DNA from: Tubulanus polymorphus
Lineage: Eukaryota; Nemertea; Palaeonemertea; Tubulaniformes; Tubulanidae
DNA: 64,000 bases
Assembly (NCBI RefSeq): GCF_964204645.1
Contig: NC_134035.1
Span: 2,000,001 to 2,064,000, forward strand
Direction: 5' to 3'
Below the pieces are notes generated by a model. That model saw only the letters and a list, made by a program, of their open reading frames with translations, searched no databases and had not been told where the DNA came from. Below are positions 10,890-49,440 of this stretch, in pieces. The position numbers and the translations under genes are program-made. Position 1 is the stretch's first letter; each line of letters starts with the position of its first letter.

Positions 10890-13800
10890 CATACGAATCT
10901 TTTTTCACTTTGGGATAAGTTGAATACCGCCCCAGTTTAGTAATACAAGAATCTTCTTTTTGAAGTAAGATAAACTGCACCTGTTGGAATCACTTTGGGG
11001 TAAGATTAAAGCTCTCAACCCCTGTTTAGCAATACATGAATCTGTACTTTGTGCTAATATAAGCTTTTCACTTTTGACCTATATAAACTGCACCTGTAAA
11101 AATATTTCCACTTTGGGGTAAGATAAGCTACCCCTGTTAGAATCTCGTCTCTTTAGGGTAAGATAAACTACCCCTGTTAGAATCTTTTTATTATTAGGGT
11201 TACTACCCCTGTTAGAATCTCTTTGGGGTACTACAGAATACCCCTGTTAGAATCTCCTTTCTCTTTGGGGTAAGATAAACTACCCATGTTTATTTTAGTA
11301 ATACAAGAATCTTTTTGGGTAAAAGATCAATATACTGCTCCTGTAAGAGTAAGAATCCCTTCTCTTTTGGGGTAAGATAAACGCTACAAACCTTGTTTAG
11401 TAATACATGAATCTTTTCTTTTTGGGGAAAGATAAACTGTTCATGTAAGAGTCTATTCTTACTTTGGGGTAAGATAAACTACCCCTGCAAGAAACTTTTT
11501 CCGTTGGGGTAAGATAAATGTAACCCCTGTAAAAATGTTTCACTTGGGGTAAGATAAGCTTGATGTATGTTAAGTACCCTTGAGGAGAGGTATGGCTAAC
11601 TAGATGAGTTCAAACCCCAAACAATCTTCTCTTTGGGGTAAGACATACTTCCCCTGTGAGAATCTTTGGGGTAAGATAAGCTACAACCCCTGTTTATTCA
11701 GTGAATCTTCTCTTTGGGGTAAGATAAGCTACCCTGTTTATTCAGTGAATCTTTTCTTTGGGGGTAAGATAAGCTACACCTGTAAGAATCTCTTTTCTCC
11801 TACGGGTAAGATAGATAATTAATAAATGAATAAATAAGCTTGGTGTATGTTATGTATAGCTATCCTTGAGGAGAGGGATGGCTTACTAGTTTGAGCTCAG
11901 TGAGTTAAAACCCCAATCTTCTTTTTGGGGCGAGATAAGCTTCCCCTGTAAGAATCTTATTACTTTGGGGTAGGTTAAGCTACAAACCCTGTTTAGTAAG
12001 GCATGAATCTGTACTTTGTGGTGATATATGCTTTTAACCTAGATAAACTAGTCCTGTAAAAGTGTTTATTTTTTACCTTTTGGGTAAGATAAACTACAAC
12101 CCTTGTTTATTAATACATGAATCTTTTCTTCTTTTTGGGGAAAGATAAACTGTTCATGTAAGAATCTATTTTTACTTTAGGGTAAGATAAGCTAACCTGT
12201 TTATTCAGTGAATCTTCTCTTTGGGGTAAGATAAGCTACCCCTGTAAGAATCGTATTATACTTTGGGGTAGGTTAAGCTACAAACCCTGTTTAGTAAGGC
12301 ATGAATCTGTAGTGGTGATATATGCTTTTCACTTTTGACCTAGATAAAATAGTCCTGTAAAAGTGTTTTTTTTTACCTTTTGGGTAAAATAAACTACAAC
12401 CCTTGTTTAGTTATACATGAATCTTTTCTTTTTGGGGAAAGTAAACTGTTCATGTAAGAATCTTTTCTTACTTTGGGGTAAGATAAACTACCCCTGCAAC
12501 AAACTTTTTCCGTTGGGATAAGATAAATGTAACCCCTGTAAAAATGTTTCACTTGGGGTAAGATAAGCTTGATGTATGTTAAGTACCCTTGAGGAGAGGT
12601 ATGGCTAACTAGATGAGTTCAAACCCCAAACAATCTTCTCTTTGGGGTAAGACATACTTCCCCTGTGAGAATCTTTGGGATAAGATAAGCTACAACCCCT
12701 GTTTATTCAGTGAATCTTCTCTTTGGGGTAAGATAAGCTACCCTGTTTATTCAGTGAATCTTTTCTTTGGGGGTAAGATAAGCTACACCTGTAAGAATCT
12801 CTTTTCTCCTACGGGTAAGATAGATAATTAATAAATGAATAAATAAGCTTGGTGTATGTTATGTATAGCTATCCTTGAGGAGAGGGATGGCTTACTAGTT
12901 TGAGCTCAGTGAGTTAAAACCCCAATCTTCTTTTTGGGGCGAGATAAGCTTCCCCTGTAAGAATCTTATTACTTTGGGGTAGGTTAAGCTACAAACCCTG
13001 TTTAGTAAGGCATGAATCTGTACTTTGTGGTGATATATGCTTTTAACCTAGATAAACTAGTCCTGTAAAAGTGTTTATTTTTTACCTTTTGGGTAAGATA
13101 AACTACAACCCTTGTTTATTAATACATGAATCTTTTCTTCTTTTTGGGGAAAGATAAACTGTTCATGTAAGAATCTATTTTTACTTTAGGGTAAGATAAG
13201 CTAACCTGTTTATTCAGTGAATCTTCTCTTTGGGGTAAGATAAGCTACCCCTGTAAGAATCGTATTATACTTTGGGGTAGGTTAAGCTACAAACCCTGTT
13301 TAGTAAGGCATGAATCTGTAGTGGTGATATATGCTTTTCACTTTTGACCTAGATAAAATAGTCCTGTAAAAGTGTTTTTTTACCTTTTGGGTAAAATAAA
13401 CTACAACCCTTGTTTAGTTATACATGAATCTTTTCTTTTTGGGGAAAGTAAACTGTTCATGTAAGAATCTTTTCTTACTTTGGGGTAAGATAAACTACCC
13501 CTGCAACAAACTTTTTCCGTTGGGATAAGATAAATGTAACCCCTGTAAAAATGTTTCACTTGGGGTAAGATAAGCTTGATGTATGTTAAGTACCCTTGAG
13601 GAGAGGTATGGCTAACTAGATGAGTTCAAACCCCAAACAATCTTCTCTTTGGGGTAAGACATACTTCCCCTGTGAGAATCTTTGGGGTAAGATAAGCTAC
13701 AACCCCTGTTTATTCAGTGAATCTTCTCTTTGGGGTAAGATAAGCTACCCTGTTTATTCAGTGAATCTTTTCTTTGGGGGTAAGATAAGCTACACCTGTA

Positions 13801-16400
13801 AGAATCTCTTTTCTCCTACGGGTAAGATAGATAATTAATAAATGAATAAATAAGCTTGGTGTATGTTATGTATAGCTATCCTTGAGGAGAGGGATGGCTT
13901 ACTAGTTTGAGCTCAGTGAGTTAAAACCCCAATCTTCTTTTTGGGGCGAGATAAGCTTCCCCTGTAAGAATCTTATTACTTTGGGGTAGGATAAGCTACA
14001 AACCCTGTTTAGTAAGGCATGAATCTGTACTTTGTGGTGATATATGCTTTTAACCTAGATAAACTAGTCCTGTAAAAGTGTTTATTTTTTACCTTTTGGG
14101 TAAGATAAACTACAACCCTTGTTTATTAATACATGAATCTTTTCTTCTTTTTGGGGAAAGATAAACTGTTCATGTAAGAATCTATTTTTACTTTAGGGTA
14201 AGATAAGCTAACCTGTTTATTCAGTGAATCTTCTCTTTGGGGTAAGATAAGCTACCCCTGTAAGAATCGTATTATACTTTGGGGTAGGTTAAGCTACAAA
14301 CCCTGTTTAGTAAGGCATGAATCTGTAGTGGTGATATATGCTTTTCACTTTTGACCTAGATAAAATAGTCCTGTAAAAGTGTTTTTTTTACCTTTTGGGT
14401 AAAATAAACTACAACCCTTGTTTAGTTATACATGAATCTTTTCTTTTTGGGGAAAGTAAACTGTTCATGTAAGAATCTTTTCTTACTTTGGGGTAAGATA
14501 AACTACCCCTGCAACAAACTTTTTCCGTTGGGATAAGATAAATGTAACCCCTGTAAAAATGTTTCACTTGGGGTAAGATAAGCTTGATGTATGTTAAGTA
14601 CCCTTGAGGAGAGGTATGGCTAACTAGATGAGTTCAAACCCCAAACAATCTTCTCTTTGGGGTAAGACATACTTCCCCTGTGAGAATCTTTGGGGTAAGA
14701 TAAGCTACCCTGTTTATTCAGTGAATCTTCTCTTTGGGGTAAGATAAACTACCCCTGTAAGAATCTGTTTATTTTGGGGGAAAACAAACTGCTCCTGTAA
14801 GAATCTCTTCTCTTTGGGGTAAGATAAGCTACCCCTGGAAAAATGTTTTCACTTCGGGGCAAGATAAACTGCTAAACTGCTCCTGTTAGAATCTCTTTGC
14901 CCTGTGGGGTAAGATAAACTACCCCTGTTAGAATCTCATTTCTCTCATAAGCAGCAACATTTCTTAGAAAAATATCTATCGTAAAAATACAAGACAAACT
15001 GCTCCTGTATCTTTTCTTCACTTTGGGGTAAGATGAGCTACCCCTGTAAGAATCATATCACTTTTGGGTAAACTACTCCTAGAATCTCATTTCTCCTACG
15101 GGTAAGATAAATATAACATTATTAATAAAAGAAAAACTTGTCAGAATCTTTTCTTCACTTTGAGGTAAGATAGGCTACAACCCCTGTAAAAATGTTTCAC
15201 TTGGGGTAAGATAAGCTCGGTGTATGTTATGTACCCTTGAGGAGAGGTAAGGCTTACTAGTTTGAGCTCAGTCTGTGAGTTCAAACCCCGATCTTCTTTT
15301 CGGGGTAAGATAAGCTACCCCTGTAAGAATCTGTTTACTTTGGGGTAAGATAAACTACCCCTGTAAGAATCTTTTACCTTTGGGGTAAGATAAATATAAC
15401 CCCTATTTATTTAGTAATACATGAATCTTCTCTTTGGGGTAAGATAAACTGCCCCTGTAAGAATCTGTTTACTTTGGGGTAAGATAAGCTACCCCTGTAA
15501 GAATCTCTTTTACCTTTGGAGTAAGATAAGCTACCGTGTAAGAATGTTTTACTTTGGGGTAAGATAAGCTATCCCTGTAAGAATCATTTTACTATGGGGT
15601 AAGATAAACTACCCCTGTAAGAATCTTTTACCTTTGGAGTAAGATAAGCTACCCCTGTAAGAATCTTTTACCTTTGGAGTAAGATAAGCTACCCCTGTAA
15701 GAATCTTTTACTTTGGGGTAAGATAAGCTACCCCTGTAAGAATCTCTTTTCTCTTTGGAGTAAGATAAGCTACCCCTGTAAGAATCTTTTACTTTGGGGT
15801 AAGATGAATATAACCCCTATTTATTTAGCAATACATGATCTTCTCTTTGGGGTAAGATAAACTACCCCTGTCAGAATCTTTTACTTTGGGGTAAGATAAA
15901 CTACCCCTGTGAGAATCTTTTACTTTGGGGTAAGATGAATATAACCCCTATTTAGTAATACATGAATCTTCACTTTGGGGTAAGATGAGCTACCCCTGTC
16001 AGAATCATTTCACTATGGGGTAAGATAAGCCACCCCTGTTAGAATCTCATTTTTCCTACGGGTAAGATAAATATAACATAAGAAATACAAGACAAGCTGC
16101 TCCTGTAAGAATCTTTTACTTTGGGGTAAAATAAGCTATCCCTGTAAGAATCTTTTACTTTGGGGTAAGATAAGCTATCCCTGTAAGAATCATTTTACTA
16201 TGGGGTAAGATAAACTACCCCTGTAAGAATCTCTTTTCTCTTTGGAGTAAGATAAGCTACCCCTGTAAGAATCTTTTACTTTGGGGTAAGATGAATATAA
16301 CCCCTATTTATTTAGTAATACATGGATCTTCTCTTTGGAGTAAGATAAGCTCCACAAGAATCATTTCTTCACTTTGGGGTAAGATAAACTATATCCCCTA
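10890..16400. repeat. ~38-bp GATA-hairpin satellite with higher-order units
   Basis: The monomer is close to TTTGGGGTAAGATAAGC followed by TACCCCTGTAAGAATC. GGGGTA and TACCCC can pair around an AGATAAGC loop, and AGATAAG fits the GATA-factor consensus WGATAR. Dozens of copies occur over 5.5 kb, most regular at 15.3-16.3 kb. Between about 11.6 and 14.7 kb the monomers form a higher-order repeat of 1007-1009 bp: the same start recurs at 11604, 12613, 13620 and 14628. Identical 72-codon frames in three of these units are by-products of the repeat. Confidence 0.9.
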
Positions 16401-16636
16401 TATATAAAAATGCCGAGATATTCGTTTCATTAATTGGTAGTAATTGTTAATGAGTTTACAGTACGATGCAGTTATTCATGTTAAAAGTTCAGGCATTAGC
16501 CTTTCTCTATGTATGAAGTTGCACTCGCTTTCTGCATCTTATCCAGGAATATTTTCAATATTTTTGATGTAAGTATGTTTACAACATACTCACTACAACT
16601 AAACCAAGCTTTTATCTTGGATGTAAAACTAAGCGT

Positions 16637-17177
16637 GTTCGTTAGTTCAAAGAGTATGACTACTCATTCGTTAGTTCAAGTATACGACTACTCATTCGTT
16701 AGTTCAAGTATACGACTACTCATTCGTTAGTTCAAGTATACGACAACTCATTCGTTAGTTCAAGTATACGACTACTCATTCGTTAGTTCAAGTATACGAC
16801 TACTCATTCGTTAGTTCAAGTATACGACTACTCATTCGTTAGTTCAAGTATACGACTACTCATTCGTTAGTTCAAGTATACGACTACTCATTCGTTAGTT
16901 CAAGTATACGACTACTCATTCGTTAGTTCAAGTATACGACTACTCATTCGTTAGTTCAAGTATACGACTACTCATTCGTTAGTTCAAGTATACGACTACT
17001 CATTCGTTAGTTCAAGTATACGACTACTCATTCGTTAGTTCAAGTATACGACTACTCATTCGTTAGTTCAAGTATACGACTACTCATTCGTTAGTTCAAG
17101 TATACGACTACTCATTCGTTAGTTCAAGTATACGACTACTCATTCGTTAGTTCAAGTATACGACTACTCATTCGTTA
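16637..17177. repeat. 28-bp satellite, about 19 copies
   Basis: Nearly perfect tandem copies of a 28-bp unit containing CGTTAGTTCAAGTATACGAC. It ends abruptly at TTCGTTATTTCG. Confidence 0.95.
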
Positions 17178-18400
17178 TTTCGTAGGTCAAATTAGTTGAC
17201 TACGTGTGTTTTGCTGCTGGTTACCCTTTTTTTGCCTTCGATCTATCTGAAGATACCTTCGCCTCTTCCATGCTCTCCTCTGTCCGTGCTTCACTGCTTC
17301 TGCGCTGTTCCACGGTTTATGCTGCGGCGCTGTGATCTGAGCCTCTGTCGACTGTATGCGTCTGCTTTTGCCAGTAAGTACCCTTTTATTTTTTTGGTGG
17401 GTCCCGGGATGTTTTTTATCGATTTTTTCTCCGCTGCGGTACATTGCCAAGTCACTTTTTTGAACTCGATAAATTGGCGTGAGCCTCGGGATAACGATGA
17501 TAATTATTATCATCCGAATATGTGTTGCAGTGTTGCGACACTTTAACTGTGGACCGTTGATGGTCTTTATATATATTATTACTGATCTTTATGTGGCTTG
17601 GCAATTAGATCTAGTTGGGGGCCCTTGGACTTCAATATGTTTTGGGGGGCCCCACCCACCCGTTATAACAATGTGATGATGAGGTCAACTATATATATTT
17701 TCATCTATTTCACAATGAAATAGATTGCTAAAGGTTTACGGTTTTCCTGAAACCATATTTCATTAGCAGTTTAACTGCCATCTTATGTAAAAAGTTTTAA
17801 AATCTGATCTAATGTTGAATGCAGAGTTTTGCTGTACTCTGATATTTTGCGATGAAATAGATTGCTGAAGGTTTACAGTTTTTACTGAAACCAGATTTCA
17901 TTGAGATTTTTTTCCCTTCGATCTATCTGAAGATACCTTCGCCGTTTTTTACTGAAACCAGATTTTATTACGCAGTATAACTGCCATCTTATGTAAATAG
18001 ATTCAATAATACAAACTGACTTAATGTTTAGATCAGTTGTAACTGAGGGCGTAACCTTGGTATTTTTACTGTACATGAAAACATTCCTGTGAAGAAATGT
18101 TTTACCCTGTTAACTTTTTAATATTGATATCGCGATAAACTTATTGATATCGCGATAAACTTGTTCCTCTCATATTATCACATTTTACCCGCCCAATATA
18201 GGATTCTTGTTTATTTGGTTCAGGGATATACCACGGGTTAGTTGAGGGATTTTTATGCCGCAGTGGAGCTTTATTGTAATCATAAATGGTTTTTGTTCGA
18301 TTATATTTCGTAAAAGGCTTTACCCGGACCATCCTTTTACTTGTCTCGATTCGTCGTCGTCGTCGAACCCGGATCCGCTACCATCGCGATATTCCGCTTA
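17178..18400. other. Diverged repeats, no clear gene
   Basis: CGATCTATCTGAAGATACCT occurs near 17238 and 17920. A block containing GAAACCA.ATTTCATTA and AACTGCCATCTTATGTAAA is repeated at about 17715-17790 and 17885-18000. A 21-bp direct duplication with TTGATATCGCGATAAACTT lies at 18122-18163. A frame at 17196-17546 overlaps a GTAAGT (17374) but begins at a non-ATG codon and has no matched acceptor, so I do not call it. Confidence 0.4.
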
Positions 18401-21400
18401 TGATCGTTTACGTTTTGATTAAAGTAGCGATCGACTGGCTCTGCTATCATTTACCGTCAACGCGCGGTGGTCAACTGAACCTAATGTCAACTCACCGCGT
18501 GATAAACTGGCTCTGCTATCATTTACCGTCAACGCGCAGTGGTCAACTGAATCTACTGTCAACTCATCACGCGATCGACTGGCACTGCTATCATTTACCG
18601 TCAACACCCGGTGGTCATCTAACCCTGCGATCAACTCAGTACTGTCAACTCAAACTGCGGTCAACGCTACTCTCAGCTAAATGTCGACTCAATGGTCAGA
18701 TCTTATGTCAACTCTATCTTGGAGTCATTCAGTCTTATTACTCCACCAACATTCAACGGTCAACTGGGCAAACAACTCAAGCAAATCAGGTAATTATCTT
18801 TCTCATCACTTCTCACTTTAAAATTTGTAGTTTTGTGTAATATTTTGATGTGTTTGAAATCTGTATTTATATTTTGTTTTATCATTTCAGTTTCTCCAAT
18901 TTGCTGTTGTTACTATGAACCGGAAAACACTGCTTCGCAAAAACAACGTCGTACAGTGTGAACAAATCTGATAATCAAAATCCACTATATTGCTATCAGT
19001 TGCGTCTCGTGGACAGTATCGCTATCAGTTCCATCTCGTGGACGGTATCGCTATCAGTTGCGTCTCGTGGACGGTATCGCTATCAGTTGCATCTCGTGGA
19101 CGGTATCGCTATCAGTTGCGTCTCGTGGACGGTATCGCTATCAGTTGCGTCTCGTGGACGGTATCGCTATCAGTTGCGTCTCGTGGACGGTATCGCGTTC
19201 AGTTGCGTCTCGTGGACAGTATCGCTATCAGTTCCATCAACTGGACAAACAACTCAAGCAAATCAGGTAATTATCTTTCTCATCACTTCTCACTTTAAAA
19301 TTTGTAGTTTTGTGTAATATTTTGATGTGTTTGAAATCTGTATTTATATTTTGTTTTATCATTTCAGTTTCTCCAATTTGCTGTTGTTACTATGAACCGG
19401 AAAACACTGCTTCGCAAAAACAATGTCGTACAGTGTGAACAAATCTGATCAATCAAAATCCACTATATTGCTATCAGTTGCATCTCGTGGACAGTATCGC
19501 TATCAGTTGCATCTCGTGGACGGTATCGCTATCAGTTGCATCTCGTGGACGGTATCGCTATCAGTTGCATCTCGTGGACGGTATCGCTATCAGTTGCGTC
19601 TCGTGGACGGTATCGCTATCAGTTGCGTCTCGTGGACGGTATCGCTATCAGTTGCGTCTCGTGGACGGTATCGCTATCAGTTGCGTCTCGTGGACGGTAT
19701 CGCTATCAGTTGCGTCTCGTGGACGGTATCGCTATCAGTTGCGTCTCGTGGACGGTATCGCTATCAGTTGCGTCTCGTGGACGGTATCGCTATCAGTTGC
19801 GTCTCGTGGACGGTATCGCTATCAGTTGCGTCTCGTGGACGGTATCGCTATCAGTTGCGTCTCGTGGACGGTATCGCTATCAGTTGCGTCTCGTGGACGG
19901 TATCGCTATCAGTTGCGTCTCGTGGACGGTATCGCTATCAGTTGCGTCTCGTGGACGGTATCGCTATCAGTTGCGTCTCGTGGACGGTATCGCTATCAGT
20001 TGCGTCTCGTGGACGGTATCGCGTTCAGTTGCGTCTCGTGGACAGTATCGCTATCAGTTCCATCAACTGGACAAACAACTCAAGCAAATCAGGTAATTAT
20101 CTTTCTCATCACTTCTCACTTTAAAATTTGTAGTTTTGTGTAATATTTTGATGTGTTTGAAATCTGTATTTATATTTTGTTTTATCATTTCAGTTTCTCC
20201 AATTTGCTGTTGTTACTATGAACCGGAAAACACTGCTTCGCAAAAACAATGTCGTACAGTGTGAACAAATCTGATCAATCAAAATCCACTATATTGCTAT
20301 CAGTTGCATCTCGTGGACAGTATTGCTATCAGTTGCATCTCGTGGACGGTATCGCTATCAGTTGCGTCTCGTGGACAGTATCGCTATCAGTTCCATCAAC
20401 TGGACAAACAACTCAAGCAAATCAGGTAATTATCTTTCTCATCACTTCTCACTTTAAAATTTGTAGTTTTGTGTAATATTTTGATGTGTTTGAAATCTGT
20501 ATTTATATTTTGTTTTATCATTTCAGTTTCTCCAATTTGCTGTTGTTACTATGAACCGGAAAACACTGCTTCGCAAAAACAATGTCGTACAGTGTGAACA
20601 AATCTGATCAATCAAAATCCACTATATTGCTATCAGTTGCATCTCGTGGACAGTATCGCTATCAGTTGCATCTCGTGGACAGTATTGCTATCAGTTGCAT
20701 CTCGTGGACGGTATCGCTATCAGTTGCATCTCGTGGACGGTATCGCTATCAGTTGCGTCTCGTGGACGGTTTCGCTATCAGTTGCGTCTCGTGGACAGTA
20801 TCGCTATCAGTTGCGTCTCGTGGACGGTATCGCTATCAGTTGCGTCTCGTGGACGATCGCTATCAGTTGCGTCTCGTGGACGGTATCGCTATCAGTTGCG
20901 TCTCGTGGACGGTATCGCTATCAGTTGCGTCTCGTGGACGGTATCGCTATCAGTTGCGTCTCGTGGACGGTATCGCTATCTGTTGCGTCTCGTGGACGGT
21001 ATCGCTATCAGTTGCATCTCGTGGACGGTATCGCTATCAGTTGCATCTCGTGGACGGTATCGCTATCAGTTGCATCTCGTGGACGGTATCGCTATCAGTT
21101 GCGTCTCGTGGACGGTATCGCTATCAGTTGCGTCTCGTGGACAGTATCGCTATCAGTTGCGTCTCGTGGACGGTATCGCGTTCAGTTGCGTCTCGTGGAC
21201 AGTATCGCTATCAGTTCCATCAACTGGACAAACAACTCAAGCAAATCAGGTAATTATCTTTCTCATCACTTCTCACTTTAAAATTTGTAGTTTTGTGTAA
21301 TATTTTGATGTGTTTGAAATCTGTATTTATATTTTGTTTTATCATTTCAGTTTCTCCAATTTGCTGTTGTTACTATGAACCGGAAAACACTGCTTCGCAA

Positions 21401-24330
21401 AAACAATGTCGTACAGTGTGAACAAATCTGATCAATCAAAATCCACTATATTGCTATCAGTTGCATCTCGTGGACAGTATTGCTATCAGTTGCATCTCGT
21501 GGACGGTATCGCTATCAGTTGCGTCTCGTGGACAGTATCGCTATCAGTTCCATCAACTGGACAAACAACTCAAGCAAATCAGGTAATTATCTTTCTCATC
21601 ACTTCTCACTTTAAAATTTGTAGTTTTGTGTAATATTTTGATGTGTTTGAAATCTGTATTTATATTTTGTTTTATCATTTCAGTTTCTCCAATTTGCTGT
21701 TGTTACTATGAACCGGAAAACACTGCTTCGCAAAAACAATGTCGTACAGTGTGAACAAATCTGATCAATCAAAATCCACTATATTGCTATCAGTTGCATC
21801 TCGTGGACAGTATCGCTATCAGTTGCATCTCGTGGACAGTATTGCTATCAGTTGCATCTCGTGGACGGTATCGCTATCAGTTGCATCTCGTGGACGGTAT
21901 CGCTATCAGTTGCATCTCGTGGACGGTATCGCTATCAGTTGCATCTCGTGGACGGTATCGCTATCAGTTGTGTCTCGTGGACGGTATCGCATTCAGTTGC
22001 GTCTCGTGGACAGTATCGCTATCAGTTCCATCAACTGGACAAACAACTCAAGCAAATCAGGTAATTATCTTTCTCATCACTTCTCACTTTAAAATTTGTA
22101 GTTTTGTGTAATATTTTGATGTGTTTGAAATCTGTATTTATATTTTGTTTTATCATTTCAGTTTCTCCAATTTGCTGTTGTTACTATGAACCGGAAAACA
22201 CTGCTTCGCAAAAACAATGTCGTACAGTGTGAACAAATCTGATCAATCAAAATCCACTATATTGCTATCAGTTGCATCTCGTGGACAGTATTGCTATCAG
22301 TTGCATCTCGTGGACGGTATCGCTATCAGTTGCGTCTCGTGGACAGTATCGCTATCAGTTCCATCAACTGGACAAACAACTCAAGCAAATCAGGTAATTA
22401 TCTTTCTCATCACTTCTCACTTTAAAATTTGTAGTTTTGTGTAATATTTTGATGTGTTTGAAATCTGTATTTATATTTTGTTTTATCATTTCAGTTTCTC
22501 CAATTTGCTGTTGTTACTATGAACCGGAAAACACTGCTTCGCAAAAACAATGTCGTACAGTGTGAACAAATCTGATCAATCAAAATCCACTATATTGCTA
22601 TCAGTTGCATCTCGTGGACAGTATCGCTATCAGTTGCATCTCGTGGACAGTATTGCTATCAGTTGCATCTCGTGGACGGTATCGCTATCAGTTGCATCTC
22701 GTGGACGGTATCGCTATCAGTTGCATCTCGTGGACGGTATCGCTATCAGTTGCATCTCGTGGACGGTATCGCTATCAGTTGCGTCTCGTGGACGGTATCG
22801 CTATCAGTTGCGTCTCGTGGACGGTATCGCTATCAGTTGCGTCTCGTGGACGGTATCGCTATCAGTTGCGTCTCGTGGACGGTATCGCATTCAGTTGCGT
22901 CTCGTGGACAGTATCGCTATCAGTTCCATCAACTGGACAAACAACTCAAGCAAATCAGGTAATTATCTTTCTCATCACTTCTCACTTTAAAATTTGTAGT
23001 TTTGTGTAATATTTTGATGTGTTTGAAATCTGTATTTATATTTTGTTTTATCATTTCAGTTTCTCCAATTTGCTGTTGTTACTATGAACCGGAAAACACT
23101 GCTTCGCAAAAACAATGTCGTACAGTGTGAACAAATCTGATCAATCAAAATCCACTATATTGCTTTCAGTTGCATCTCGTGGACAGTATCGCTATCAGTT
23201 GCGTCTCGTGGACAGTATCGCTATCAGTTTCGTCTCGTGGACGGTATCGCTATCAGTTGCGTCTCGTGGACGGTATCGCTATCAGTTGCGTCTCGTGGAC
23301 AGTATCGCTATCAGTTGCGTCTCGTGGACGGTATCGCTATCAGTTGCGTCTCGTGGACAGTATGGCTATCAGTTGCGTCTCGTGGACAGTATCGCTATCA
23401 GTTGCGTCTCGTGGACGGTATCGCTATCAGTTGCGTCTCGTGGACAGTATGGCTATCAGTTGCGTCTCGTGGACAGTATCGCTATCAGTTGCGTCTCGTG
23501 GACGGTATCGCTATCAGTTGCGTCTCGTGGACGATCGCTATCAGTTGCGTCTCGTGGACGGTATCGCTATCAGTTGCGTCTCGTGGACGGTATCGCTATC
23601 AGTTGCGTCTCGTGGACAGTATCGCTATCAGTTGCGTCTCGTGGACGGTATCGCTATCAGTTGCGTCTCGTGGACGGTATCGCGTTCAGTTGCGTCTCGT
23701 GGACAGTATCACTATCAGTTCCATCAACTGGACAAACAACTCAAGCAAATCAGGTAATTATCTTTCTCATCACTTCTCACTTTAAAATTTGTAGTTTTGT
23801 GTAATATTTTGATGTGTTTGAAATCTGTATTTATATTTTGTTTTATCATTTCAGTTTCTCCAATTTGCTGTTGTTACTATGAACCGGAAAACACTGCTTC
23901 ACAAAAACAATGTCGTACAGTGTGAACAAATCTGATCAATCAAAATCCACTATATTGCTATCAGTTGCATCTCGTGGACAGTATTGCTATCAGTTGCATC
24001 TCGTGGACGGTATCGCTATCAGTTGCATCTCGTGGACGGTATCGCTATCAGTTGCGTCTCGTGGACGGTTTCGGTATCAGTTGCGTCTCGTGGACAGTAT
24101 CGCTATCAGTTGCGTCTCGTGGACGGTATCGCTATCAGTTGCGTCTCGTGGACGGTATCGCTATCAGTTCCATCAACTGGACAAACAACTCAAGCAAATC
24201 AGGTAAATATTTCTTTCTCATAATTCCTTGTATTCGAATTACTTTATAGATTTGTAACATTTTGATTGGATTGAAATCTATATTTATGTTTTGATTATTT
24301 TGTTGTTTTTCAGTTTCTACAATTTGCTGC
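18400..24330 (+). ncRNA. Tandem exon-cassette array with 29-bp VNTR exons
   Basis: A first exon (72-bp repeats at 18433-18640, donor at 18790) precedes ten cassettes: 18891-19266, 19368-20092, 20194-20425, 20527-21249, 21351-21582, 21684-22060, 22162-22393, 22495-22958, 23060-23753 and 23855-24202. Each starts TTTCTCCAATTTGCTG, has a constant ~100-nt head, then about 4 to 21 copies of a 29-bp unit (CTATCAGTTGCGTCTCGTGG plus 9 bp), and ends CAAGCAAATCAG. They are separated by near-identical 101-bp introns GTAATTATCT...TTATCATTTCAG. The last intron (24203-24313) is a diverged 111-bp form, GTAAAT...TTTTTCAG. Heads carry stops in all three frames and exon lengths differ modulo three, so no frame crosses cassettes. 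A spliced non-coding RNA, or short cassette-level ORFs starting at ATGTCGTACAGTG, are the options. Splicing is inferred from sequence only. Confidence 0.6.
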
Positions 24331-25900
24331 TGTTATGATATGGGACGGTCGAAGCGCAAAGTCGATACTCAAGAGAAATTGATACTCAAAGAATTTTGGA
24401 TATCAAATCTGTGAAATTGAGACCAAAATGATCAAATGTGCGTCTCAATCCTATGAAATTGAGATCAAATGTTCCATATTGAAATATCAAAATTGTCTAT
24501 CAAATCTTTGAAATCGAGACCAAATTGATCCATGATCCGTGAAACTATTATTTCCTTCAGAATTTAAATATGGAATCTCAGTTATTTGCCTAATTCAATT
24601 TTCTTGCCAACAGGATTTGAACCTGTAAATGGATAAATCATTCTGGATGATAATGATGTATTACTAAACGGCAGGACGCAGTTCTATCGGGTTCTGAGTT
24701 CAGATTTAACACAAAAAGTTAAATCATGCGTAAGCAATGTACTAATTACTAATTCTAGTTGATTGATTTGATGATTTGAGTCTTCGAACTCACGAAGCTG
24801 AACTTAACAAAGGAAACTTCTATGATTTCCAATGAATTGCCTTTTGAAAAACGACCAAATTATTTTGAGGCATTCATTATTCGGGAATTTTACCTGAATA
24901 GAATCCTATTTTTATTGAAATGAAAAGCTCAAGTGAAACACGTGAATAAGATCTCGTGTCTACGTTGGAAACACTTTGTGAAATTTTTCGAATTTCAGAA
25001 ATTGTCATCAGGAATCGAACCTGAAACTGCACAGATTATTATATCTGGTTTACTCTTACCAATGAGCCAGATGGTGAACTTTAAACAACGTTGAGCAACA
25101 GTCAAAATGCTCTCTAAATCTGGATAATTTCTTCATCATTTTTGATTAAATTGCCATTTTTTGACGTCAAATTACTTTCATTTTTAGCAAAAAAACGACT
25201 ACAGTATCAGTTAAGTCTTATTCATAGATTTTCATGATCTGGACCTGATATTGAACTTCTGAAATTTGGCATTCGTTTTTCTTACAGATATGGTCATCAA
25301 ATTATTGAAACTGAAAGGATTTTCCTGTTGGAATTTCTTTTTAGTTTCCATGTTTTGTATTCGATGCTGGTTTTGAACAAGTACAAAATTTTTAAGGAGA
25401 AATCTCTAACATTTCTCGGCTTACAGGGACTGAACCTGTCACTATAAAATTACCAAGTTTTGTGTGATATCAAAATCTGCTATTTTTGGTATCAAATACT
25501 TTCATTTTCAGCGAAAACTACAACAGTTATGAAGTTGTCTTATTCATAACTTCATAAACTGAACCTGATATCGAACTTCTCAACTTTGGAAAATTTGTTG
25601 GGAAGTTTTTGTGAAATTTATTGTCATCAAAGTAAAATCCTAAACGGAGTTTCTTATTCATGGAATCATGTATGTTTTAGTTTCCATGTTTTGCATTTGA
25701 TGCTCGGTTCAAAAGAACCCGAAGTGTTTAGAAATGATAAAATCTTTAACACTTTTCAGTTTAGTAGAAATAATGTGTATCTTCAGGGACCGAACCTGTA
25801 AACATTATTTCAAGTCTCATGTGACTTCATCAAAATCAATTATGAAAAATCTCGATGTGATACGATTATTTATTGTTCGACATTTCAGTCGACTCGAGTT
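24314..25900. repeat. Diverged tandem blocks with tRNA-like T-arms
   Basis: Four minus-strand T-arm-like hairpins (17 nt, 7-nt loop beginning TTC) lie at 24610-24626, 25008-25024, 25423-25439 and 25783-25799, about 360-415 bp apart. Three have perfect 5-bp stems. The one at 25008 is preceded on the minus strand by TGGCTCATTGG, a fair A box. Flanks share blocks such as TAGTTTCCATGTTTTG and TGATATTGAACTTCT, so the whole stretch looks like an old tandem array of a tRNA-derived unit. None folds into an intact tRNA. Confidence 0.45.
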
Positions 25901-25904
25901 CAAA

Positions 25905-26150
25905 CAAGGGAAAAAAAACGTTTGTGTAATGAAAGAAAAAAAATCATGTAAGAAAAAAAATTATGTAAGAAAAAAAATATATTGTAAGAAAAAAATATAT
26001 ATTGTAAATCAACAACGACGATGACGACAACAACGGGAATGGCAACGATGGACAACAATAGTAACCATAGTAACAACTAATTGGCTCCGTTAACTCCTGA
26101 TACAACATCCACTCTATGACCACACGTTCAGTGGTCAACTTACTCAAAAC
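25905..26150. other. A-rich tract and simple sequence
   Basis: Runs of A separated by TTATGTAAG-type words (25912-26000), then an ACGATGACGACAAC-type stretch. No gene. Confidence 0.5.
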
Positions 26151-26179
26151 CGGTAAGATCTGATGTCAGTGATCAACTC

Positions 26180-26950
26180 CTTGCTATCGATTGATTCGCT
26201 CTGCTATCATTTACCGTCAACGCGCGGTGGTCATCTAACCCTGCGATCAACTCAGTACTGTCAACTCAAACTGCGGTCAACGCTACTCTCAGCTAAATGT
26301 CGACTCAATGGTCAGATCTAATGTCAACTCTATCTTGGAGTCATTCAGTCTTATTACTCCACCAACATTCAACGGTCAACTGGGCAAACAACTCAAGCAA
26401 ATCAGGTAATTATCTTTCTCATCACTTCTCACTTTAAAATTTGTAGTTTTGTGTAATATTTTGATGTGTTTGAAATCTGTATTTATATTTTGTTTTATCA
26501 TTTCAGTTTCTCCAATTTGCTGTTGTTACTATGAACCGGAAAACACTGCTTCGCAAAAACAACGTCGTACAGTGTGAACAAATCTGATCAATCAAAATCC
26601 ACTATATTGCTATCAGTTGCATCTCGTGGACAGTATCGCTATCAGTTGCGTCTCTTGGACGGTATCGCTATCAGTTGCGTCTCGTGGACGGTATCGCTAT
26701 CAGTTGCATCTCGTGGACGGTATCGCTATCAGTTCCATCAACTGGACAAACAACTCAAGCAAATCAGGTAAATATTACTTTCTCATAATTCCTTGTATTC
26801 GAATTACTTTATAGATTTGTAACATTTTGATCGGATTGAAATCTATATTTATATTTTGATTATTTTGTTGTTTTTCAGTTTCTACAATTTGCTGCTGTTA
26901 TGATATGAACTGTAAAGCAGGATGTGCCGAACAGAGTGAAAAATTGCATT
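26180..26950 (+). ncRNA. One-cassette paralogue of the exon array
   Basis: 26190-26405 matches the first exon of the large array, followed by the 101-bp intron (26406-26506), one VNTR exon of 261 nt (26507-26767) and the special 111-bp final intron (26768-26878, GTAAAT...TTTTTCAG), then TTTCTACAATTTGCTGCTGT as in 24314. The order first exon, short intron, VNTR exon, long intron, terminal exon is therefore shared, while flanks differ. That argues that these are copies of one transcription unit rather than random satellite drift. Confidence 0.55.
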
Positions 26951-28430
26951 CAGAAAAAAATGTACCAAACCTATGTGATTACAAAACATCAATCTTGCGA
27001 TGTAAAGTAACATGGAAACAATTCGATCTATCGAAACATCAGGTTTGCTGTTATCAGTCAAGAGACTATCTGATATAAATGCGTGAGAGTCACCTGCTAT
27101 GCTATCCAGTCTTACGGGACCGTCTCATACAATGCGATATCGAGTATGAAAGTTGAATGATACCCACAGCGAAAAGGCTTATATGATACAATACGTCATG
27201 TTCATCAGTAACAAAGAAACGAGACGAACTGAGTTGAGACACCAAGGATCAAGTAACCTGCTATCTGTCATGGATCCAGTAACCCGCTATCTGTCATAGG
27301 GCTGTCGTATATAGTCCAATACGTCACGATCGCGAGTAATAACGAAACAGGTCGAATCACAAACGTTCCAGTGCACAAATTACTCGCTAGCGTTCCTTCT
27401 CGCTTGCGATCTCGAGATATTTTCCAGAAAGAAAAATTTGGTTGAAAGTGTACGTTGTGTAATCGGGTAGTGGAAGGAGTTAAAGGAGCTGAATCGCCTC
27501 GTTCGTTCGTTCGTTACTACGTTTGGTTACTTCGCGTAATTAGACTCGTTTTAAAATTCGTAAACGCTTCATCGACGATGACGACAACTTCACCAACGAC
27601 GACTACAGGATTTTAGTGGTTGAAAAATATTTGTATTCGAAAAAAAAAAAACTTGGATTGATATTTTAGATGATTAGAAAATAAATTGTAGGAAACATAA
27701 AGAGAGATATGTTAAACATAAAACATATTTTGAGAAACCTAAAAGATTACATTATAGCTTGAATTATCGAAAAAATATATTATTGTAAGAAAAGAAAAAA
27801 TATATTATTGTAAGAAAAGAAAAAAAAATTTCTAAGAAAATAAGGCATAAATATCTTAGACAATTAGAAAAGAATATTGTGAAGAAGCAGTTGAATTAAC
27901 AGATTTGAATAATACAAACATAAATCGAATACCGGGTAGTTAACAGTTGAGTCAAGTTTAGAATAATTTAGTGCAGGTTTATATGTGATATTTGATAAGT
28001 CACTGAAATAGGATTTAGACAAACGTAGATGAATTACTGAACTGTTGATCTGTCAATAATTTGAGTTTAGAGATTGTTAGGATATTTGGTGAATAATTGA
28101 ATTGTAAATCAGTAAATTTTAGAAGTTAGAATATTTATTATGATGGACTGGACATAGAAAAATTAAGTATTGATTGATAAGTGAATAACTGAAAAAAAAC
28201 TGAATTGTCGAATTATGAATACGATTCTATTCAAGAGATTGATTTAAAGCGTTTCATGTTGTTTTAGTGTGGTTGAATATCTATCAAATAATCTTTAATG
28301 TTTGATCGAAGTTGATTGACTTTAATTCTTGAGTCGATCGGTGAAAAACTGCTGAAAAATGAAGAAACCTAGATAGAGTAATAGAAATTTTGAATAGACT
28401 ATAGAAATCTATGGTATAGATATTTCATTG
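26951..28430. other. No recognised gene
   Basis: Contains a small internal repeat (GTAACCTGCTATCTGTCAT and GTAACCCGCTATCTGTCAT near 27250-27300), CGTTCGTTCGTT near 27500 and A-rich runs at 27640-27840. I see no splice-bounded exon. Confidence 0.4.
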
Positions 28431-28439
28431 AAAAGGAGA

Positions 28440-29400
28440 TTATGAATTACTTGTGTGATGTTTGTGTTGGTCGAAAAATGTTTTGTAGCTGTAAGAAAAG
28501 AGTTGACAAAAATTCTGATAAACACAGTGATATACGATTAAAACTGTAAAATGAAGAAATAGAATAATCATTGAAAGAAATTTTGATACAGATTTTGATA
28601 AACTGTTTTGCGTGAAAATATAGGAAACATTTTCGTGAAACAAATAGATTTAGATACTGTGTTAAACAGTGTTAAACCATGAAGGAAGAAATCTAATGAT
28701 TTTGGAATATTCCTGTTTTTCCAGTGGTGTGGCATAAATAGATTTAAATGCGGAAGTACTATGATGATTTTTGTGATTATGAAACATTCCCGTTTTTCTT
28801 GTTGTAAGAATTTTCCTCAGTTAAGGTTTCAAGGTCAGGTTACGAAAGTCCGCATAGGAATATGGTTTAGGTTACAAGAATAAGATATAGAACAGTGAGG
28901 TGATTTTGTTGAAAAATGTTACTATTTTGTGAATTGCATTCCGTGCCACTAGATATTTTCATATATCTATATATATATATATATATATATGTGCTGATAT
29001 ATAATTACTCAGGTTGTTCAAGCGATAAAATAGAAGTATTTGATGTGGAAATATACGATGAATTTTGTGTGATTTTTCTTGTGGTACAGAAAGATCTTGA
29101 TAAACTGTTGTATAATGAATACAGTTATATTAAAACCGTAAAGGGAAAAATTTGATGATTCTGAAACATTCCTGTTTTTCTAGTGGCTTGATGTTGAAAT
29201 ATTATGATTGTGTTTTTGTGATTGTGAAACATTCCAGTTTTTCACAGTCCAGGTTTGTCTAGGTTACAAAGATAAAACTTATAAAAATCGTGAGGGTGAT
29301 TTTGTTGGAAGATTTTATCAGTATTTTGTGATTTGCACTGATACTGATGATGGTTACTCGGGTTATATATTCAATCTATTAAATAGAAACTAGCAGTGAT
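28440..29400. repeat. Old tandem duplication
   Basis: Blocks such as GATTCTGAAACATTCCTGTT and TGTGATTATGAAACATTCC recur in the same order at about 28690-28860 and 29150-29280. A (TA)n run lies at 28967-28990. Short frames here are unsupported. Confidence 0.5.
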
Positions 29401-30480
29401 AATAAATAGCTACTTGCGATTTCATATGATCTCATTTTTATAATATGTTAAACAGGCAAAGTCTAATTAAGTCATGTAAACTTTGTATGTTTTCATTGAA
29501 GAGTTAGAGTGTATATAATTTTGAACACGATTACATATAAACATGTGTGTTCTAAAGATGTAGATAGAGATGTATTTATATGTTTAAATTTATTTGGAAA
29601 AACATGACCTTTTATGATTGTTTGATATTTGTTGTTTGTTCATTTGGATTTTTGTTCTCAAAACAGGATTTTATTTGTGAACAGCAGAAGGTGAAAAATG
29701 AATGAAAGAGGATAAAAGCCAATAGCTATGAATTTCTTTTTATTCATTGGTTTTATCTTGGAAAAGTGAAGAAAGAAGATGTAACTCCAGCACTTCGGGA
29801 TATAGACCCCAAGCACCTCCCTTCTCTATAGAGCTTATTCTGAATTTCCTCTCCCTTGTTGATCTATGGTGAACTGGTTGAAATGTTTAAAGTGAAAAAA
29901 AAATATAATGCTAAAACCATTTTGAACAGAAGAGTAGTTAAAACCAGATCGCCAAGATCATTCCATTACTCGCCTACCATTTACATGGTAAATGGGGAAA
30001 AATAATTTTGTTAATCGAGATAGAAATAAAAACATTTTGAAAACATTGGTGACATGAAAGTTATTGACAAAATATACAGATACTTTACTATACACTACTG
30101 GAGGGATCTTACATATACATGTATGACGATATCTAAACCATCTTGGATCAATTTTGCTGAGTGGAAATTTGAAGCTCTAAGTAATGTGTCTAAATTTGGA
30201 ATGTTTTCGCAAGTTTAGCAAGAATTGGTCACAATCAGAGAGACAATGTAATAAATCCCCAAAAATATAGGCCATTTTTGGAAATTCATTTCTGCGTAAA
30301 TGAAGGTTTGAAAGTCTAACGAAAGATTACAATTACGATTACGATTTTATTTACACTCCAACCATTTCCATGGTATATGGAGGAAAACTATTTCACATGT
30401 ATATACAAATATTTACATAACAACACTGAAGTGATTAAAATTTAGAGAATGAAAAAGTTTACAAAATATATACATTAACT
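29401..30480. other. No recognised gene
   Basis: AT-rich. A CCATTTACATGGTAAATGG palindrome is near 29977-29996, and a related CCATTTCCATGGTATATGG near 30362-30381. Confidence 0.4.
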
Positions 30481-33039
30481 ATTTACAATACATCAAAGCC
30501 GGTTTTAGATAAGATAAGATGATAATGAGATGATCTAACCTCATATTCGTAATCAGCACCCCAAAAAACACGTCTGCACAAAATTTCATTAAAATTGGGC
30601 CAAAAAAATATTTTGACATTGTACCCCATTTTGGGGTGCATATTTTGGGCATGAAAACCCTTATTTGCCCATGCAGATGAATTCCGATTCAAAATCTGAT
30701 TTCGGATCCGGAATCTACACCTCAGAATACATATTCCTACCAAATTTCGAAGGAATCAGAGAAAAAAAAGTTTTCGCCGAAAAAAAACTCCTGGACTAAC
30801 TAACACCTTAGATTTTTGCCATTTTTGGCCAAAAAACCGAATCTCTTCGATTTGCTTGAAATTTTAGTCCTTTATATTTTCAGGGGTGCTGATTCCAAAT
30901 CTGCAATCAGATTTTGAATATCTTGAAAACTCTGGGATCCAAGGCCTTTTGAAAATTTAGGGGTCCCCCAAAAAATTCGAATTTCTCATTTTCTGGGCAG
31001 CGGATCCGAAAAATTCGTTCAGATTTGCGATCAGCACCCTTTAATACATGTCTGAACGGAATTTCATCAAAATCGGAGACAAAAAATATTTTACCCCTGA
31101 CACTCATTTTGGGGAGTAGCCTACCTTAGATTGCCATTTCTCTGATACAACGGTAACTAGACTTAACTCTAACTGTGTATAACTGATTGGTGGCATCAAA
31201 TTTATTAACTTTCATTTATATCTTTTAGGATGTTTGTCATCATTAGGATTGAATTATTGACTTTTTGAGTTTGATGAGCATCAGGATCAGATGAACTGGA
31301 TAGATATGTGTGGGCAGTGTTAGAACTCACCGGGAGGATAAACAAACAAACGAACAAATATTGGGAGAACTTGACTTCAAATTTACTCTTAAGCATTATT
31401 CTTTAATAGTTTCTGAGCATTATTTCTGGTTACAGTGTTAGTGGTAGTTGAATGCACTATTTTAGAGAATAAAATTAAATTTGCTTGAAGTTCTTCCTTT
31501 GGCATGTGAGCCTACCGCTTTACCGGATGCTAATACATTCCGCAGACAAAAGAGTTCTATCAAAAATGGTTTAAAATTCGTTTTAAAAAGATGATCCCCT
31601 TCGAAAAACCTTAAACGATAGTAGAATTAGTCATATACAATGGAATCGTATTAGATAATCAACGAAATTCGGCTAAGAAAAATATCTTTATTACTCGCAT
31701 GCCACAGTAAGATCGCAAGGCTGAGTTAGATATTTACCGTACAGTGCTGCCCCTATGAATAACGATAGCGGAATTTCTGCGAACTAAAATAGTAGCGCAT
31801 ATTTACCGCCGGAATTTAAATGTCCTTATTACGTACAATACCGACCAGTTTGTCGTCTAATTCTGATTTAATATGATACTATGAATACGTTCTGAATTTT
31901 GAATATTTTTTAGGTATCATATTTAATCATTTTTAGCTAAAATTTACTTACTTATCAATTAATATAGTATTTGTATACTGAATAAATTATTCATTTTCAT
32001 TTTTTAATGATAATTTATCATCAGAATTGACAAAATGTCCATACTTTTTCTTCGATAAAGTCGATTTGCGCGCAAATAAACAGGGAACATACAAACACCT
32101 ATCGCTCTCTCCCAGACCATACTAGAAATACCCCGATTCATCTTAACTCTTTTAAGGCTTATTCTTTTATAGAAAAATTGTTTGGTTCGAACGTTTCAGA
32201 GCAGTTTTCAGAGTTTGAGAATTTTCCTCGGAATCCGGCCCGCAAATCGGTAATTAGTTCGTCCACTCCTGCCGTTCGAAGACTCTGGCAAGCGAGTATT
32301 ATGTTAGTTCACATTTTCCACGCTATCGTTATACATAATGGCAGCACTAGACGGTCGAGATTGAATTGGTCGCGCTATTTTACTGTGGAGCGGGCTCAAT
32401 TCGATCGCTAATTCTTTATTTACAACAGTGAACTATTCCCTCTATTGATAAAGACTTTAAAGCCGCGACGATTCTTAATGTACGAATTTTGATATTGGTA
32501 AAAAAGATAAGAATTCATTCACGATGTTTCATTTTCATGTCCTCAGGTACACACACTTTAGGGGGTCGGGGACCTCACTCACTCCAGACCCACAGTGACT
32601 TTGCAGACACTTCGACAGTCAGTGACTAGTGAGGCCGGGACCTACTCAAATTTAGTCTGAATCAGTCAGTCGTTTTTACTACGGGTTCTGGGTTGTTTAG
32701 GGAACGACGGCTAGGTGCTAGACTAACAGGGACCTCACTCGGTGTCAAAAACCACTTTCTAGCCTACACGGGCCGCACTACCCTAGCCGCTTGCATTGCA
32801 CATGGTGCAGCAGGTGATAGTTTCACAAATCTTGATGAACTGTTCTTCAACTTCCTCCGGCACCACATCTTGTTCAGCAGGTTAAGACCAGCTGACTCGA
32901 CCATTTAGTTACACCAGCTTTCTCCCACTGCCACAGGCTGGGCTCTTGTGTAAAACGAGAATCTGTAAATCCAGTGTGACTGAAAACTGCTGAAAACTTT
33001 TGTTAAAGCCTTTACTATGTCACTGTTTTGCTCTCTTTT

Positions 33040-33315
33040 CACCCATCCTCCCTCAACCTCTCACCCGACCCTCCCTCAACCTCACAAACCACCCTCTTCA
33101 ACCTCTCACCCCATCCTCCCCAACCTCTCACCCCATCCTCCCTCAACCTCTCACCCCATCCTCCCCCAACCTCTCACCCAATCCTCCCCCAACCTCTCAT
33201 CCCATACTCCCTCAACCTCTCACCCCATCCTCCCCAACCTCTCACCCTATCCTCCCTCAACCTCTCACCCCATCCTCCCCAACCTCTCACCCCATCCTCC
33301 CGCAACCTCTCAGTC
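33040..33315. repeat. CCTCCC minisatellite, copy 1
   Basis: About twelve copies of a ~22-bp unit CAACCTCTCACCCCATCCTC. Related arrays lie at 36020-36190 and 40185-40455 with different copy numbers. Open frames over it are repeat artefacts. Confidence 0.9.
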
Positions 33316-33429
33316 AGTCTTCCTGTTAATGTGATTTCAATTTTATATTTCAGGTTTTCCTCTGTCGGGCTGTGGTGTAGTACTCGACGTGGTGGACTTC
33401 AACTGAAATTTATCACAGTTTTACTTCTT

Positions 33430-33575
33430 CAGTCAACTTCTTCCGGACTACTAGTGAACTAACTGGACTACTAGTCAACTAACCGGACTATTAGTGAACT
33501 AACTGGACTATTTGTGAACTAACCAGACTATATGTGAACTAACTGGACTATTTAGTCAACTAACCGGACTATAAG
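33430..33575. repeat. ~20-bp GGACTA minisatellite
   Basis: Units of the GTGAACTAACTGGACTA type occur six or seven times here, again at 40590-40735, and in shortened form at 37205-37270. This fits the segmental copies. Confidence 0.8.
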
Positions 33576-40000: not shown

Positions 40001-40184
40001 CTTCCTCCGGCACCACATCTTGTTCAGCAGGTTAAGACCAGCTGACTCGACCAGTTAGTTACACCAGCTTTCTCCCACTGCCACAGGCTGGGCTCTTGTG
40101 TAAAACGTGAATCTGTTAATCCAGCGTGACTGAAAACTGCTGAAAACTTTTGCTTAAGCCTGAGTTATTGTGTTTGCTTCTCTT

Positions 40185-40455
40185 TTCACCCATCCTCCCC
40201 AACCTCTCACCCCACCCTCCCTCAACCTCTCACCCCATCCTCTCTCAACCTCTCACCCCATCCTCCCTCAACCTCTCACCCCATCCTCCCCAACCTCTCA
40301 TCCCATCCTCCCCCACCTCTCACCCCATCCTCCCCAACCTCTCATCCCATACTCCCTCAACCTCTCACCCCATCCTCCCCAACCTCTCATCCAATTGTCC
40401 CTCAACCTCTCACCACATCCTCCCCCAACCTCTCATCCCATCCTCCCTCAACTTC
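40185..40455. repeat. CCTCCC minisatellite, copy 3
   Basis: Same unit as the other two copies, with several CAATTGTCC and CATACTCC variants. Confidence 0.9.
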
Positions 40456-43488: not shown

Positions 43489-43700
<212 letters not shown>

Positions 43701-46159: not shown

Positions 46160-46800
46160 GACTGAATCATACGTATTTATAACTTCCAAATTAGATTACT
46201 GTAATAGTCTTCTCTACGGTCTTCCGAATTGTTATATTTCTCGCCTACAAATGCTTCAAAATTCTGCCGCACGCCTAGTCACTCTAACTAAGAAGCACGA
46301 GCATATCACTCCTATACTGTATGAACTACATTGGCTCCCTGTTCAATCGCGCATTGAATACAAAATTCTCCTGTTAACTTTTAAAATTTTGCATGACCAA
46401 GCTCCAGCCTATCTTTCGTCTGTTTTAACCACTCTTACACCTTCCAGACACACGCGCTCGACCGTGGCAACTAAATTATTTGAACCGAGATACCGCCAAG
46501 AATTTTATGGCTCTCGAGCTTTTGCGGTGGTAGCCCCCCGCCTTTGGAATGCTTTGCCACAGTCGATGCGCGATTTATCTTCCCTTAATAGTTTTACCTC
46601 GCAATTGAAAACGCACCTATTTAATCAGCACTACAAATGATTTTACTTGAAGCAACCGTTTGAAATTAAATATCTATTTTATTGGGTAATATTTTATATA
46701 TCTGTCAATTGTCTTATGTTTTTGTCAATTTGTAAAGTCTGTTGAGATATTTTATGTAACGGACTGTAAATAAATATTATTATTATTATTATTATTATTA
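46160..46800 (+). mobile_element. L2/CR1-type LINE 3' end (5'-truncated)
   Basis: From about 46165 the frame (open 46122-46640) reads the segment C-terminal to the reverse transcriptase of CR1/L2-like non-LTR elements: [60 protein letters not shown] and a final [10 protein letters not shown]. Catalytic RT and endonuclease domains are missing, so it is dead on arrival, as is usual for such insertions. The 3' end is a short UTR with TGTAAATAAATATT and (ATT)n at 46776-46800, typical of microsatellite-tailed LINEs. The coding part has no frameshift, which suggests a fairly young insertion. The first ~13 codons of the open frame are probably host sequence. Confidence 0.85.
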
Positions 46801-48465: not shown

Positions 48466-48504
48466 CCTCGTTCTCTATGATAGAACTGATGAATTAAACT
48501 AAAC

Positions 48505-49197: not shown

Positions 49198-49440
<243 letters not shown>

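Follow-up and report, generated by a model that had tools for sequence, protein, structure and literature searches.

Contig NC_134035.1 (C11 below) of the nemertean Tubulanus polymorphus carries an array of ten exon-like cassettes separated by short, identical introns. We analyzed this array in a stretch of 64,000 nucleotides (C11:2000001-2064000, here called the window, with positions counted from its first letter) and searched the whole assembly (267.8 Mb, 77 contigs) for its relatives. Each cassette consists of an acceptor, a head, a variable number of 29-bp repeats, a tail, and a donor. From the sequence comparisons given below, we consider it probable that the array is part of a spliced gene resembling those of long non-coding RNAs (lncRNAs), in which an exon with a variable number tandem repeat (VNTR) was amplified together with its upstream intron, and that this gene belongs to a family of non-coding, gene-like units with introns, which lie in a duplicated block at nine loci.

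Organization of the window array

Junction mapping across the window placed the ten cassettes at 18891-24202 on the plus strand, to which the other parts of the unit also belong, and their order of acceptor, head, 29-bp repeat, tail, and donor is that proposed in the preliminary description of this DNA. The array is preceded by the 3′ part of exon 1 (18427-18789), which contains about three 72-bp repeats and ends in the shared tail at a donor (18789/18790). The first 101-bp copy of intron A follows (18790-18890), and identical copies begin at 19267, 20093, 20426, 21250, 21583, 22061, 22394, 22959, and 23754. The cassette exons that these introns separate are exon 1 (18891-19266; 376 nt, 9 units), exon 2 (19368-20092; 725 nt, 21 units), exon 3 (20194-20425; 232 nt, 4 units), exon 4 (20527-21249; 723 nt, 21 units), exon 5 (21351-21582; 232 nt, 4 units), exon 6 (21684-22060; 377 nt, 9 units), exon 7 (22162-22393; 232 nt, 4 units), exon 8 (22495-22958; 464 nt, 12 units), exon 9 (23060-23753; 694 nt, 20 units), and exon 10 (23855-24202; 348 nt, 8 units). 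The units were counted by cutting each exon at the 29-mer core. Altogether there are 112 units in 4403 nt of cassette exon sequence, with exon lengths of 232 to 725 nt, and the counts agree with the earlier estimate of about 4 to 21 repeats. The 232-nt exons of cassettes 3, 5, and 7 are identical in sequence, and the inner array is a dimer of one short and one long cassette repeated three times. This alternation had been noted before; it is present in the window but is a higher-order repeat specific to it, as the related array at 2.10 Mb has other inner cassettes.

The tenth cassette is followed by intron B (24203-24313, 111 bp), a paralogue of intron A that has diverged in sequence but retains the borders. 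The near-invariance previously ascribed to the 101-bp introns holds for the ten copies that stand before the cassettes, but not for this one. Within the limits first given for the array (18400-24330), positions 18400-18789 belong to a different upstream exon with 72-bp repeats rather than to a cassette, and an additional single cassette stands further downstream. The latter belongs to a second, complete small unit 3′ of the array, which comprises an exon 1 that extends to 26405, a copy of intron A (26406-26506), a five-unit cassette exon (26507-26767, 261 nt), intron B (26768-26878, from the junction mapping), and a last exon from 26879. This intron A is identical to the ten array copies, so that all 11 copies in the window agree, and it shows no substitution in the seven loci aligned. 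The 2092-nt stretch from the intron B acceptor to the next intron A donor (24314-26405) begins as exon 3 and finishes as the second exon 1, and may form a single exon. The presumed terminal exon (26879-27700) contains the first AATAAA past the array (27680), near which the transcript would end.

A family of nine loci

A search for the intron elsewhere in the genome, as the preliminary description had proposed, was carried out with a gapped, exact pattern that strongly diverged copies would escape. It gave 66 matches, all of them inside nine loci: C11 at 0.37, 0.44, 1.64, 2.02 (the window), 2.10, and 2.93 Mb, C9 at 0.94 and 1.60 Mb, and C8 at 13.94 Mb. The reversed control gave none, which excludes that the array arose by chance. 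The remaining three of the 69 introns at these loci differ from the search pattern inside it. A looser search for the acceptor (up to three mismatches) resulted in 89 matches and added a relic at C8:13.99 Mb as well as five matches elsewhere in the duplicated block; 14 three-mismatch matches were found outside the nine loci, compared with 9 for the reversed control. At the sensitivity of these searches, the family is confined to the nine loci. The 29-mer core had no exact match in the viral collection.

The duplicated block measures about 24.5 kb or more, with the C8 locus matching window positions 5266-29816 piecewise. In the simplest units, exon 1 is followed by intron A (98-103 bp) and VNTR exon 2, and intron B (105-120 bp) then leads to one or two more exons. 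Each unit at the C8 locus and at the C9 loci has a single VNTR exon, and at the C9 loci whole units have been amplified. At 1.64 and 2.93 Mb the intron is amplified by composite exons of 1626-2438 nt, in arrays that close with a plain VNTR exon (435 and 783 nt). The neighboring array at 2.10 Mb, about 80 kb from the window, has eight cassettes compared with ten in the window.

Window positions 43.7-53.0 kb are duplicated at 2.122-2.142 Mb (mostly 90-98%, one piece 80%). The window and its 2.10-Mb neighbor, which are separated by about 80 kb, could have arisen by tandem duplication or could be two haplotypes placed side by side in the assembly. A marker at 47827-48474 is found in six copies (98-100%) on C11 between 1.97 and 3.74 Mb, the window included, and true duplication is therefore favored over haplotypes. 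An assembly artefact, named at the outset as a threat to the whole proposal, is unlikely for the structure itself, whereas a two-haplotype placement of window and neighbor is possible. The C11 loci at 0.37 and 0.44 Mb lie at a distance of 77.8 kb from each other, share 99.98% identity over 14.8 kb, and represent either a very recent duplication or an assembly duplicate.

Splice sites of introns A and B

BLAST and nhmmer detected 44 copies of intron A and 25 of intron B at the nine loci. GT..AG borders are kept in 69/69 introns and a pyrimidine-rich tract precedes the AG. The lengths vary (98, 101, or 103 bp for A and 105, 111, or 120 bp for B), and every length variant keeps the borders. Seven distinct sequences account for all 44 copies of intron A. 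As an intact intron carries both of its sites, any duplication preserves the alternation. When the consensus sequences of A and B were compared, sharp divergence was seen to start at the donor and at the acceptor. The alignable exon-flank positions agreed in 49/52 cases (counted by eye) and the intron in 74/111 (Fisher p = 7e-5), the 52 positions having been chosen post hoc; with all 65 flank positions the values were 52/65 and 74/111 (p = 0.083). The earlier proposal that the unit is a spliceable exon is supported only indirectly, by the borders, by the sharp A/B divergence there, and by the length variants, while the lack of spliced copies and the lost acceptor of a relic, both described below, speak against it.

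Upstream stretch and poly(A) signals

A candidate promoter region, one per locus, is found at 17182-17909. A search with window positions 17200-17800 gave nine full-length matches genome-wide (98-100%), exactly one at each locus. Between C8 and the window 5/728 positions of 17182-17909 differ, against 79/2169 in six downstream blocks (gaps excluded; Fisher p = 5e-6), the limits of the stretch having been set post hoc, once the profile had been seen. The conservation counts for the downstream blocks and the intron columns cover seven of the nine loci, omitting 0.44 Mb, a near-copy of 0.37 Mb, and also 2.93 Mb, where the stretch examined yielded no second sub-unit; the upstream comparison covers six, without 0.44 Mb and the two C9 loci. 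Upstream, conservation is weaker in the 0.37-Mb copy (97% over 17182-17996). Directly 5′ of the conserved stretch, 16638-17181 is occupied by a 28-bp tandem repeat (19.4 copies at 98%), which is longer at the 0.37-Mb locus.

AATAAA is absent from the plus strand of window positions 18390-27679 and occurs first at 27680. In shuffles of 24203-27679, 4.2 were expected and none was seen in 19/1000. At 4/9 loci, the stretch from the first donor to the last exon contains no AATAAA, and at 8/9 loci the first one sits 801-974 nt into the last exon; at the 2.93-Mb locus none was found in the 3.5 kb examined. As an argument for the unit, the poly(A) signals are suggestive only. The comparison of the upstream stretch suggests that each locus has a single transcription unit whose 5′ portion is constrained. 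Transcription would proceed along the plus strand, introns A and B would be removed by the spliceosome, and the product would be a long RNA that contains as many as ten VNTR exons and ends at about 27.7 kb.

Spliced gene or silent satellite

Alternatively, the array could be a silent composite satellite, that is, a once-genic block in which intron and exon pieces multiply only as DNA, with splice signals persisting in the young copies. This is unlikely in our judgment, although it accounts for several observations. Copies of intron A with the exon head are 97-100% identical and the flanks 94-100%, and retention of the splice sites is partly expected at such identities without selection. The surrounding block is also rich in other tandem repeats. 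The ten units of intron and exon, with their identical introns, have the homogeneous head-to-tail arrangement of a satellite; large non-genic arrays, another satellite feature, were not seen, as one to ten cassettes lie within a unit that has distinct first and last exons. On the other hand, introns A and B are older paralogues that share 74/111 columns, yet their borders and pyrimidine tracts are kept and their flanks are better kept than the introns. The unusual conservation of the upstream stretch between C8 and the window likewise argues against a silent satellite.

Some of the findings weigh against a spliced lncRNA-like gene. The 69/69 GT..AG borders are a weak test of selection because the copies are young and related. 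No spliced copy (retrocopy) was found genome-wide at up to two mismatches, and a diverged relic of exon 1, intron, and VNTR exon on C8 (C8:13990000-13996000) now has TG in place of the acceptor AG; both results would fit a silent satellite. Inside the unit, one to seven AATAAA are present at 5/9 loci and one to four of the weaker ATTAAA at 9/9, the two ATTAAA in window positions 18390-27679 being at 18418 and 25145. Intron A has 0/101 variable columns compared with 149/2560 (5.8%) in the surroundings (seven loci, p = 0.006), which is odd for a passive intron. Intron B, with 9/111 variable columns (8.1%), is not unusually conserved despite its 25 copies. In these counts, columns with fewer than six letters were skipped and indels excluded. 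The invariance of intron A could be due to conversion or to an unknown function, and the counts do not distinguish constraint from conversion.

Mobility of the intron and RNA structure

The short intron could also be a mobile element (introner) that was inserted repeatedly and carried exon-flank sequence with it, tail and head being an imperfect inverted repeat. We consider this highly improbable. The tail-intron-head module does occur at three exon junctions, and the pairing of tail and head around intron A (−15.9 kcal/mol) was equaled by just 16/2000 shuffles. However, the pairing around intron B is ordinary (298/2000), and the heads of exon 2 and exon 4 are similar past the module (80% over 41 nt), as exon duplication predicts. 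In addition, the 66 exact matches were all within the nine loci, and the looser search added the one C8 relic together with the 14 outside matches set against 9 in the control. In the sections of PMC9860276 that describe introners, these are widely dispersed, which is not matched by intron A. The introner was rejected at the sensitivity used, since dispersal in many unrelated genes was not observed. The fold of the whole tail-intron-head segment was no better than that of shuffled sequences (z = +0.87; 162/200 as good), and the RNA structure of the 29-mer was no more stable than that of shuffled units (152/300 as good).

Coding potential

In 44/44 exon heads that come after intron A, every forward frame is interrupted by a stop. 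The repeat length of 29 is not a multiple of 3, and the cassette lengths cover all three classes modulo 3. An open reading frame (ORF) of 168 residues reaches the exon 1 donor in the window; elsewhere it is open only at the 2.10-Mb locus, which makes 2/32 exon-end sites examined. Pfam gave no match above the cut-off, the exon 1 ORF having one weak sub-threshold match (17.9 bits vs 27). A protein-coding gene with repeated exons, in favor of which one could cite the 168-residue ORF and the fact that the 29-mer itself is open in all three forward frames, was rejected on account of the stops, the rarity of the long ORF, and the Pfam result, and is the least probable of the explanations considered.

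Upstream ORFs at 17.2-17.6 kb were dismissed, as the differences among six loci lie mostly at second codon positions in both frames (phase assigned by hand). Rfam gave no match at the gathering threshold in the window and none at E ≤ 1 in 16400-30300. A host-gene array for small nucleolar RNAs (snoRNAs), in which each intron holds a snoRNA, was rejected on the basis of these zero matches.

Origin of the array

The VNTR exon tail is followed by intron A at 16 junctions, of which nine are in the window and seven at 2.10 Mb; none of the other loci examined has such a junction. At the other loci, intron B comes after the VNTR exon tail and intron A after exon 1. The last 21 nt of the exon 1 tail and the VNTR exon tail are common, and an exchange there would explain the founding unit. 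Unit maps of the window and 2.10-Mb arrays show an identical order of 20 units in the penultimate cassette, which is cassette exon 9 of the window. The first and last cassettes of the two arrays agree at their beginnings and ends but not in length (9 vs 15 and 8 vs 14 units), and no correspondence was found among the inner cassettes. Stable edges with turnover in the center are the pattern that unequal exchange or conversion would be expected to leave.

We propose that exon 1 and exon 2 recombined at their similar ends and that this placed intron A behind exon 2 in the window and its neighbor. Unequal exchange or conversion may then have multiplied the resulting repeat unit of intron A and VNTR exon to ten copies in the one and eight in the other, while exon length would have been altered independently by slippage or exchange within the 29-mer. 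The likeliest driver would be recombination in a gene without reading-frame constraint. We saw no evidence of selection favoring the expansion itself.

Surroundings of the unit

An array of a unit of about 40 bp (GGGGTAAGATAAGCTACCCCTGT...) is located at 10900-16400. It also contains a larger repeat, about 1007 bp long, and has matches at 6/8 other loci, the C9 stretches examined ending short of it. A direct 3.2-kb duplication (30533-33714 and 37710-40867, 92%) contains 23-bp and 20-bp tandem repeats. Further simple arrays are a pure (GCA)70 at 43489-43699 and a (GATA)60 at 49200-49438 (96%). Minus-strand ORFs are present at 47533-48474, where the 47827-48474 part, used above as a marker, has many diverged relatives among its 45 genome matches. 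We take these ORFs to resemble a seven-transmembrane receptor, although the 47827-48474 part had no Pfam match at E ≤ 0.01. Positions 46177-46788 are absent from the 2.13-Mb duplicate, and the ORF overlapping them is presumably reverse-transcriptase-like.

Significance

The window array is a clear case in which an internal exon and an intron turn into a satellite while splice signals persist, and the nine loci show at least three modes of amplification of one intron, namely by exon cassette, by composite exon, and by whole units. With ten identical introns in succession and exons of 232 to 725 nt between them, it lends itself to studying how such a series is dealt with by the spliceosome, and whether selection acts on exon number in a non-coding RNA. 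If transcribed, a single locus would give rise to RNAs of unusually variable repeat content. A more far-reaching version, which we put forward only tentatively and regard as rather unlikely, is that of a hypervariable spliced non-coding RNA gene family. A satellite on two levels, 29-mer within exon and exon with intron, would make exon number and length evolve fast, and the repeat dosage of the RNA would differ between loci or alleles, for example in an architectural RNA or a small-RNA precursor. Intron A would then be nearly invariant as an exchange point or for a function of its own.

Comparison with known systems

The preliminary description knew of no system of this form. This is too strong, as the IPW-A/SNORD116, Firre RRD, and LPA arrays are in print; the comparisons below follow those sections of the cited papers that deal with them. 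The IPW-A exons of the SNORD116 host in the Prader-Willi region of mammals are tandem non-protein-coding exons split by introns, and the SNORD116 snoRNAs, 29 copies in human, occupy the introns of this array (PMC4742849). The window array is similar in having non-coding exons in tandem with introns between them. It differs in that the 101-bp intron has no Rfam match at E ≤ 1 in place of a snoRNA and that the core of the exon is a 29-bp VNTR. In the Firre lncRNA, the RRD repeat makes up 7/13 exons in human and 11/23 in mouse (PMC4820808). Here too a repeat forms many exons, in the window those of a putative lncRNA. However, the local repeats of Firre are defined there as discontinuous copies, whereas the window has a homogeneous head-to-tail array of intron and exon with an internal VNTR; Firre is also transcribed, whereas transcription of the window array is predicted. 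In common with lncRNAs of the IPW-A and Firre type, the repeated exon of the window is bordered by canonical splice sites (69/69 introns) and has no conserved reading frame (stops in 44/44 heads; ORF at 2/32 sites).

The kringle IV type 2 (KIV-2) VNTR of LPA has an exon-bearing unit of 5.6 kb, present in 1-40 units per allele (PMC11462820, PMC6314250). It resembles the window in being a tandem array of exon-bearing units, which in LPA is copy-variable, and differs in being protein-coding. The KIV-2 array stays in frame, and to our knowledge its exons contain no internal minisatellite. Here, two copies separated by about 80 kb, perhaps paralogues, perhaps haplotypes, have ten vs eight cassettes. 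In genes of human segmental duplications, including non-coding RNAs, minisatellites of about 30 bp on average vary in the exons of recent paralogues (PMC2812944). The 29-mer is likewise a minisatellite varying within putative exons of duplicated gene-like units. In the source the variation is located inside exons or where exon and intron meet, while in the window whole cassettes of intron and exon are amplified as well. No exon array in which every exon has a VNTR of its own was found in the open-licence PubMed Central literature. Tandem non-coding exons, repeated lncRNA exons, and copy-variable exon arrays are already known, and what is new in the window is the VNTR within a snoRNA-free exon array.

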